Under the pieces are notes generated by a model, which was not told where the DNA came from, searched no databases, and saw nothing but the letters and a program-made list of their open reading frames with translations. DNA of 33,143 nt from Candidatus Nomurabacteria bacterium (GTDB lineage Bacteria; Patescibacteriota; Minisyncoccia; Phycocordibacterales; UBA9973): assembly GCA_027347985.1 (NCBI GenBank), contig DAIEQH010000004.1, positions 1 to 33,143 of the forward strand, read 5' to 3'. The position numbers were made by a program, and so were the translations under genes. Position 1 is the stretch's first letter. Each line of letters begins with the position of its first letter. Below, piece by piece: positions 3,824-32,072 of the stretch.

Positions 3824-3850
3824 ACTTGTCAACCTGCCAGGTCGACAAGT
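3824..3850. repeat. RAYT-1 palindrome, copy 2
   Basis: Same core as 3284-3316 (arms ACTTGTC / GACAAGT plus ACCTG / CAGGT). It sits between the NUDIX start (3809) and the end of the RAYT gene, and encodes the RAYT C-terminus KLVDLAG. Confidence 0.92.
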
Positions 3851-4476
3851 TTATCATATTCTCTTTCTTTAAAGAATCCACCAAGTTCCTTTAAATAATC
3901 CTCAGGTGTAATATCAAAATTTTCATAAAATAAATCCTCATTAATAATTCTTGAAAATTCTGAAGTATTTTTATTGAAGTAATCTCTAAAACTGGACCAT
4001 TTATAATTCTTTAAAAATTCTAATTTTTTATTCTCGGTAAAATCACTTTTTTTTATTAGATCAAAAATATTTAAGTCTATGTAAAAAGGTATATACAAAA
4101 AGTGTCTATTATTTGTTATCTGAATAATGCGTGCTGAATTTTGAAATAAATATCCACTTGCTTCTCTTTTTATGTTTATATATTTTGTAAATGAATTGCC
4201 GAGTCTTTTTACAAATTCTAGAACTCCACCATCAACTTTTTCGTATAAAAGAAGATGATAATGATTTGGCAACAAAGTCCATTTTAAAATTTCAACTATT
4301 TTATCTTGTTCAGGAAAAGAGTCTACTGATTTTCTGTGTGAATTTATTCTTAAACTTTCACCTTTATTATTCAAACGATATAAATTTAGAACAAATCTAA
4401 AATAATCAGAGTCATTATCAAAAATTTTCTCCTTTCTTACTCCCCTATTACAAATATGATAAATATCTCCAACCAT
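3829..4476 (-). CDS. REP-associated tyrosine transposase (RAYT, Y1/HUH family), locus 1
   Basis: RAYTs are single-copy relatives of IS200/IS605 TnpA that bind and nick REP palindromes on single-stranded DNA through a HUH motif and one tyrosine. This 215-residue protein shows the IYHICNRGV start motif, the metal-binding HUH motif PNHYHLLLYE (H72, H74), GYLFQNSARI, and the likely catalytic Tyr in YIPFYIDLNI (about Y132). Its neighbouring palindromes at 3284, 3824 and 4502 are the expected REP partners. The C-terminal seven residues are encoded by palindrome copy 2. The island interrupts what would otherwise be a simple recA/efp junction. Confidence is high for the family; present-day activity is not shown. 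Confidence 0.9.
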   Translation of the reverse strand: MVGDIYHICNRGVRKEKIFDNDSDYFRFVLNLYRLNNKGESLRINSHRKSVDSFPEQDKIVEILKWTLLPNHYHLLLYEKVDGGVLEFVKRLGNSFTKYINIKREASGYLFQNSARIIQITNNRHFLYIPFYIDLNIFDLIKKSDFTENKKLEFLKNYKWSSFRDYFNKNTSEFSRIINEDLFYENFDITPEDYLKELGGFFKEREYDKLVDLAG

Positions 4477-30889: not shown

Positions 30890-31298
30890 TTACCAAATTT
30901 TCGCTCTTATTAAATCAGGAATAATTTTTTCTTCTGTAATAGTAATCATTGGATATCTTTTTGTTTTAAAATCTTTTTTGGTTAACCAAATAAAATCTTC
31001 AATCTCCATATCTGGTTTTATGCCCCCCCCCTACAGTTGCAATATATACTCTTTGATTATAAATCACTTCAGGGTTATAAAATGACATTCCTTTATATTC
31101 ACCAAAAAATTTTGACTCAATTAAATCAACTCCGATTTCCTCTTTTAATTCTCTTTTTAAACAATCTTCATCTGATTCTCCTTCTTCAATCTTACCTCCT
31201 GGCGTCCAAAGTTCTTTGTACCCCTTACCTTTGAGCATTAAAATTTTTTTGTCCTGAATTATTATTCCAGCAATTCTAGTTTTTAGTTTAATTTCCAT
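30890..31298 (-). pseudogene. NUDIX hydrolase, frameshifted at a poly-G tract
   Basis: From ATG 31298 the protein shows ARIAGIIIQDKKILML-type strands (TRIAGIIIQDKKILMLKGKG), then a perfect NUDIX box G-KIEEG-E-SDEDCLK-RELKEEIGV. It then reaches a run of 9 G (9 C on the plus strand, 31023-31031), after which the frame ends quickly (HKTRYGD). With 8 G the frame continues as IKPDMEIEDFIWLTKKDF...YPMITITEEK to a TAA at 30890-30892, the expected C-terminal half. So one extra base is present. This mirrors the other NUDIX gene (7 G instead of 8). It lies directly downstream of RAYT locus 2, as the other NUDIX gene does at locus 1. Confidence 0.85.
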
Positions 31299-31341: not shown

Positions 31342-31364
31342 ACTTGGGAGCTCGGCTCCCAAGT
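31342..31364. repeat. RAYT-2 palindrome, copy A
   Basis: Arms ACTTGGGAGC / GCTCCCAAGT with loop TCG, a perfect 10-bp hairpin just after the RAYT stop codon (31367-31369). It could terminate the RAYT transcript. Confidence 0.93.
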
Positions 31365-31366
31365 GA

Positions 31367-32023
31367 TTAATCTAATAACAAATACTTTAATTCTTTTTCT
31401 TTCTTTTTTCTCTTTACAATATCTGGTAATGAAGAATTACAAAAAGATCTATATTCCCTCTCATCAGAAAACTGTTCCAAAATAATATTTTTAGAACAAA
31501 TATTTCTTTTACTTTTATCAACATATTCTTTAAAACTTGATACTGGTAAATTTTCCATCCATTTTTTATTTAAACCTTCATGTACTTTATAATTTAAATT
31601 TACATAAACACTCAAATGTAAAAGATATTCATTTGAATCTATGTGTATAGCTTTATATTTTCCTTGAAACAAAGAACCACCGCGTTTATATTTTTCGTTA
31701 AAATAATTAGTATATCCTGTTGATAATCTATGCATAAATTTTTGTATACCATCACCAACAAGAGGTTCTAAAATAAAATGATAATGATTTTGGTTCAAAC
31801 AATAAGCAATAAAATTTACTAATTTCCCTGACTTGGGAGCTCGGCTCCCAAGTTGATTAAAAGAGTTTTCAAAAATACTACCTATGGGGTCTTTAACATT
31901 AAAATCGTTCATGCTTTTTAAAAAACGATGAAAATCTTCTACATCCATAAAGATATCTCTCTTATCCACTCCCCTATTATAAATATGATAAAATTCTCCA
32001 GTGGTAAATTTAATGTTTCGCAT
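31367..32023 (-). CDS. REP-associated tyrosine transposase (RAYT, Y1/HUH family), locus 2
   Basis: A 218-residue Y1/HUH protein from ATG 32023 (an ATG at 32041 would add MLYYIY and nearly touch the palindrome). Features: GEFYHIYNRGVDKRDIF, HUH motif NQNHYHFILEP (H80, H82), GGSLFQGKYKAIHI, and the likely catalytic Tyr in HLSVYVNLNY (about Y140). This is a closer match to the RAYT consensus than locus 1. It is bracketed by copies A and C of its own palindrome. A third copy (B) lies inside the coding region, in frame, giving QLGSRAPK. The palindrome family is unrelated to that of locus 1, as expected if each RAYT recognises its own REP. Confidence 0.92.
   Translation of the reverse strand: MRNIKFTTGEFYHIYNRGVDKRDIFMDVEDFHRFLKSMNDFNVKDPIGSIFENSFNQLGSRAPKSGKLVNFIAYCLNQNHYHFILEPLVGDGIQKFMHRLSTGYTNYFNEKYKRGGSLFQGKYKAIHIDSNEYLLHLSVYVNLNYKVHEGLNKKWMENLPVSSFKEYVDKSKRNICSKNIILEQFSDEREYRSFCNSSLPDIVKRKKKEKELKYLLLD
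31831..31853. repeat. RAYT-2 palindrome, copy B, inside the RAYT gene
   Basis: Identical 23-nt hairpin (ACTTGGGAGC, TCG, GCTCCCAAGT) within the coding sequence. It encodes QLGSRAPK about 15 residues before the HUH motif, with the frame intact. Confidence 0.93.
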
Positions 32024-32043: not shown

Positions 32044-32072
32044 AACACTTGGGAGCTCGGCTCCCAAGTGTT
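32044..32072. repeat. RAYT-2 palindrome, copy C
   Basis: The same hairpin with arms extended to 13 bp (AACACTTGGGAGC / GCTCCCAAGTGTT). It overlaps the recJ stop codon (32071-32073) and lies upstream of the RAYT start. Confidence 0.93.

Follow-up and report, generated by a model that had tools for sequence, protein, structure and literature searches.

The RAYT-like gene and its hairpin

This locus raises the question of why a transposase gene should carry, within its own coding sequence, the hairpin that stands on both its sides. The gene lies in a 33,143-nt stretch of DNA (hereafter the window) from Candidatus Nomurabacteria bacterium, assembly GCA_027347985.1, contig DAIEQH010000004.1, positions 1–33,143. 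The 23-nt palindrome ACTTGGGAGCTCGGCTCCCAAGT occurs here in three exact copies, after, inside and before the gene, all in one orientation (Table 1). The chance expectation for such copies is zero (100 dinucleotide shuffles), and the whole 0.65-Mb draft genome holds only five of them, namely Copies A, B and C, a fourth in contig C41 and a fifth in contig C59. The hairpin consists of a 10-bp stem and a 3-nt loop, folds as single-stranded DNA with −10.2 kcal/mol (z about −6), and is present also in the predicted fold of the mRNA.

Table 1. Coordinates of the gene, its palindromes and related features in the window.
Feature	Position	Strand	Remarks
RAYT-like Y1/HUH transposase gene, 218 aa	31367..32023	-	ATG at 32023, TAA at 31367–31369; Pfam and AF2 model
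Copy A, downstream flanking palindrome	31342..31364	-	2 nt past the stop codon
Copy B, internal in-frame palindrome, site 1	31831..31853	-	exact match; encodes L58–K64, LGSRAPK; site conserved in homologues
Copy C, upstream flanking palindrome	32047..32069	-	23 nt 5' of the ATG; extends into a 29-nt inverted repeat
Site 2, about residues 146–158	31550..31588	-	without palindrome here; in many homologues the own palindrome lies there
HUH motif, residues H80-Y81-H82, preceded by N79	31778..31786	-	invariance in alignments

The protein matches Y1_Tnp (PF01797) with 29.4 bits against a cut-off of 23. Residues N79, H80 and H82 are invariant in alignments A1 and A2, and the candidate catalytic tyrosine Y107 is invariant, together with H80 and H82, in alignment A2. 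The AlphaFold (AF2) model of the 218 residues has a mean pLDDT of 87, and its nearest PDB fold is 4er8, a RAYT–REP complex (E 7e-6, TM 0.52/0.67); this entry was reached by fold search only, a sequence search of the PDB giving no match, and no viral relatives of the gene were found. The score with the NCBIfam model for REP-associated tyrosine transposases is 19.2 bits, below the cut-off of 80. We chose the label RAYT-like because this curated family score and three classical RAYT/REP features, the GT(A/G)G head, inverted flanks and high copy number, are all missing.

The initial annotation had described an exact copy of the flanking hairpin lying in frame just before the HUH motif, and this is borne out: between Q57 and S65, the codons CTT GGG AGC CGA GCT CCC AAG of Copy B encode the peptide, which ends about 15 residues upstream of H80 and H82. 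Residues 59–63, the centre of this peptide, are the sole segment of the model with pLDDT below 50.

Recurrence of the internal palindrome at two sites

Homologues were collected from whole genomes of relatives and from genome contigs, with titles naming Parcubacteria, Nomurabacteria, Moranbacteria, Giovannonibacteria and other patescibacterial groups. The set comprises 120 distinct genes from patescibacteria, a group with very small genomes; 95 of the genes have a detectable flank palindrome. What the initial annotation had seen once recurs in dozens of these relatives at two conserved sites: site 1 is the loop between the GSIYE helix and the strand preceding the HUH motif, and site 2 is a loop near residue 150. 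The gene's own flank palindrome is found at site 1 (87 nt) in 59 of the 95 genes and at site 2 (54 nt) in 27, compared with 3.5 and 1.7 expected from the palindromes of other loci; neither observed value was reached in any of 10,000 permutations, and the remaining 473 nt of the gene hold such a palindrome in one gene of 95. Since an early test demanding GC-rich flank hairpins overlooked AT-rich palindromes, a reverse test was made starting from the internal palindromes. It gave a match to the own flank in 66/78 cases at site 1 (3.5 expected) and 34/37 at site 2 (2.6 expected). With the forward and reverse tests taken together, 86 of the 120 genes carry their own palindrome within the coding sequence, and the proportion is 33/34 in the nearest clade versus 3/12 in the most distant.

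The palindromes themselves differ widely among loci (TTGGGAGC.., TTGGAGGC.., TGAGAGGC.., ATAGCGCC.., TCGGGTGT..), the encoded peptide varying accordingly (LGSRAPK, LGGKTSK, LRGKASQ, LGSRTTK, LRGPTSQ). At some loci, the internal elements are double hairpins.

Whether the peptide QLGSRAPK is an insertion had also been asked. The lengths of the site-1 loops lend no support to an insertion of eight residues into an empty loop: they are about the same with the own palindrome (median of 28 codons) as without it (27 codons), and no clean empty site was found among them. Two N-truncated homologues start near site 1 and were considered as possible outcomes of a recombination joining a flank to this site. 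Only one of them, L288 (genome G030), begins within a decayed site-1 palindrome, possibly through a palindrome-associated deletion; the other, L289, has none.

In the E. coli rayT control, REP cores lie outside the gene only. None of nine non-patescibacterial RAYTs has its own palindrome inside the gene, a limited control, since the same filter also finds no near-perfect palindrome in the flanks of most of them.

Concerted evolution of internal and flanking copies

Internal palindromes are on average 0.978 identical to their own flanking palindrome, while the identity between orthologous internal palindromes falls from 0.91 in close pairs to 0.40–0.47 in distant pairs. In 58 of 59 cases, the internal copy resembles its own flank more closely than it does the nearest relative whose flank differs; it should be noted that this figure covers genes pre-selected as occupied, and that the unconditioned comparison is the one given by the forward and reverse tests above. 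The loop bases, which are unconstrained by the stem, match the own flank in 53/56 comparisons (8.6 expected), in the same orientation in 28 cases and reversed in 26; where one orientation would read a stop codon, the readable orientation is used 20 to 1. Independent tree pairs show the internal base following the flank, with no opposing case among the pairs listed and with too few pairs at single positions for significance. The internal copy matches its own flanks while the palindrome varies by locus, and this is concerted evolution.

The pattern that the initial annotation had named as contrary to its claim, a peptide kept on non-palindromic codons, was not what we found. The peptide varies with the flanking palindrome of its own locus, and third positions at identical residues are identical in 58/62 comparisons inside the palindrome versus 0.66 outside (pooled, partly overlapping pairs). 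Different palindrome types occupy different frames at one and the same site. The copies come and go, as their presence changes at least 26 times on the tree at site 1 and at least 12 times at site 2.

Copies in host genes

The two further copies of ACTTGGGAGCTCGGCTCCCAAGT in this genome are both in frame, one as part of an inverted pair in rsmH and the other in an ftsQ-like gene that was recognised by no family model. Most related genomes have no palindromes at these variable loops of rsmH and the ftsQ-like gene. A similar pair stands in the same rsmH loop of the relative G014, and the rsmH copies are thus palindrome pairs in two species. In two relatives, exact copies lie in frame in fmt and in a PIF1-like helicase gene. 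That such a palindrome can sit in frame, as the initial annotation had suggested, therefore holds also for other genes of the same genome and for many genes of relatives.

Coding sequence is not preferred by the wider TTGG family of palindromes away from RAYTs, because only 24 of 45 distinct copies fall within ORFs of 120 aa or more, a length that serves only as a proxy for coding status, versus 80% of random positions. The larger ORFs with such copies match recG, leuS, ligA, uvrC (twice), argS, truB, mnmA (twice, at the same place) and rnhB; these copies were matched to the TTGG family pattern and not to a RAYT of the same genome. In one relative, the wider TTGG type reaches as many as 52 palindromes. 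We also observed that mnmA of two genomes (L160, L164) carries different in-frame palindromes at one shared place, and that genome G046 (L176–L190, L268–L287) has about 50 palindromes, many of them within a larger inverted-repeat element, TTACACCACA...TGTGGTGTAA.

Possible origin of the internal copies

We consider it probable that the transposase spreads and re-copies its own hairpin and that its own gene, which has two tolerant loops, is the nearest target. The unit would be REP/RAYT-like, a gene for a single-strand HUH transposase with its presumed recognition hairpins on either side. Through the enzyme, or through its reaction, the hairpin would be copied into new places and also over existing hairpins, with a preference for the neighbourhood of the enzyme's own gene. 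Internal copies would survive at sites 1 and 2 because only these two loops of the protein tolerate an in-frame, hairpin-encoded peptide of 7–8 residues, and there they would be repeatedly rewritten to the current flanking hairpin; farther off, the surviving copies would be those between genes and those in frame in host proteins where a loop tolerates them. The sequences themselves show the identity, frame and position of the copies, their concerted evolution and their presence in host genes; that the enzyme recognises the hairpin, that it copies it and that it prefers nearby targets is what we infer, and mobilisation is read here from sequence patterns and not from observed movement. The observed pattern fits a hairpin-copying enzyme without proving one. 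Further points weigh against re-copying: no clean empty site was found at site 1, the flanks have no GT(A/G)G head of the classical RAYT systems, and nearly every gene of the nearest clade is occupied, a regularity beyond what purely selfish re-seeding might lead one to expect.

This regularity is also the main reason why self-regulation, the idea of the initial annotation, is a serious rival, even if we regard it as rather unlikely. Here, the protein would bind the hairpin in its own mRNA or gene and limit its own expression or mobility, selection would keep the internal hairpin, and its co-evolution with the flanks would follow from shared recognition. The unusually conserved third positions inside the palindrome and the hairpin in the predicted mRNA fold are in line with this, as is a copy kept at site 1 or site 2 throughout almost the whole nearest clade. 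The repeated changes of presence on the tree speak against it, and so does the copying of loop bases in either orientation, which recognition of the stem alone would not require; the copies in host genes would have no such role. A bolder version, which we hold to be of similarly low probability, makes the internal hairpin an obligate working part: the gene would carry its own address in its coding sequence and would use it in feedback control or in-frame excision between sites, and the protein would be rewritten with each change of the recognition site.

Homogenisation by ordinary recombination of the host, in which short inverted repeats would undergo gene conversion or template switching without a transposase, appears improbable. 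Palindromic stems would allow conversion in either orientation, in agreement with the nearly equal numbers of same and reversed loops, but the shared identity of only about 19–23 bp is short for homologous recombination, homogenisation stops at the palindrome edge, and the distant copies in host genes require dissemination. That LGSRAPK has a function in the protein, with the palindrome incidental to it, is very improbable: the peptide does lie near the HUH strand, but it differs with each palindrome and is missing from homologues with an equally long loop, its segment is predicted to be disordered (pLDDT), and palindrome types stand in different frames at the same site. An assembly artefact or chance can practically be set aside, since, although most of the genomes are metagenome assemblies, the internal copy is found also in the complete chromosome CP011215 (L093) and in the 694-kb contig AWSN01000001 (L040), with zero copies expected by chance.

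Comparison with known palindrome systems

The closest parallel is the REPtron, described in the parts of PMC2817692 and PMC8266576 consulted as a gene for a Y1/HUH protein with the RAYT fold that is bracketed by short hairpins whose sequence co-evolves with the gene; according to the same parts, Stenotrophomonas REPs likewise have an 8-bp perfect stem and a 3-nt loop. Both in the window and in the relatives, the RAYT-like gene is flanked by two copies of one palindrome, as in REPtrons. Unlike in REPtrons, the flanks are direct in the window, and in the relatives 41 are in the same and 18 in inverted orientation. A GT(A/G)G head stands beside 3 of 149 flank palindromes versus 8 after shuffling, and a search for a GTAG foot at the flank palindromes found none. 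Further differences are the five copies in this genome, compared with the abundant cognate palindromes of REPtrons, and the own palindrome inside the coding sequence.

As with the Rickettsia palindromic elements (Ogata et al., as summarised in the part of PMC10969869 consulted), in-frame palindromes lie in many unrelated protein genes. Those elements are about 150 bp long, whereas here the core is 23 nt and pairs are about 44 nt, the comparison being one of size. In contrast to them, a transposase gene with the same palindrome, a candidate mobilising enzyme, is present in the genome here, and the hairpin behaves like a Rickettsia palindromic element that has such an enzyme. CGTC-type repeats, including some in-frame Rickettsia palindromes, seem to have no dedicated transposase, as far as PMC3733652 was consulted. 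The present in-frame palindromes stand beside a transposase gene that bears the identical palindrome and is its most regular host, so that what mobilises coding palindromes can be put to a direct test. In addition, nature has recorded here, within a single stretch of DNA, how a recognition site and a protein sequence change jointly.

Intragenic REPs, in the main text of PMC3733652 as far as consulted, resemble the present copies in lying inside ORFs, often those of DNA-repair genes, and encoding extra residues, and some overlap the ends of transposase genes; that text, in the same part, differs in describing neither a REP within a RAYT gene nor concerted evolution between REPs and flanks. Set beside REPINs (PMC3116915, in part), whose unit is an inverted pair of palindromes, the present copies are mixed: some of the internal and dispersed ones form inverted pairs (the rsmH copy; L084, L086, L103), and the flanking and internal copies of the window locus are single palindromes. 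In the consulted parts of the literature, mostly outside subscription journals (PMC2817692, PMC3116915, PMC3686654, PMC3733652, PMC8266576, PMC6006769, PMC10969869), an internal RAYT palindrome was not found.

Other features of the genome and window

The 0.65-Mb draft genome (G000) contains eight RAYT-like genes. A second RAYT-like gene of the window, at positions 3829–4476 on the minus strand, has a different palindrome, which is located upstream of the gene and again over its C-terminus, where it supplies the stop codon. A run of nine C at window positions 31023–31031, which is a variable tract or else reflects a sequencing error, lies in the adjoining NUDIX-like gene, which appears frame-broken.
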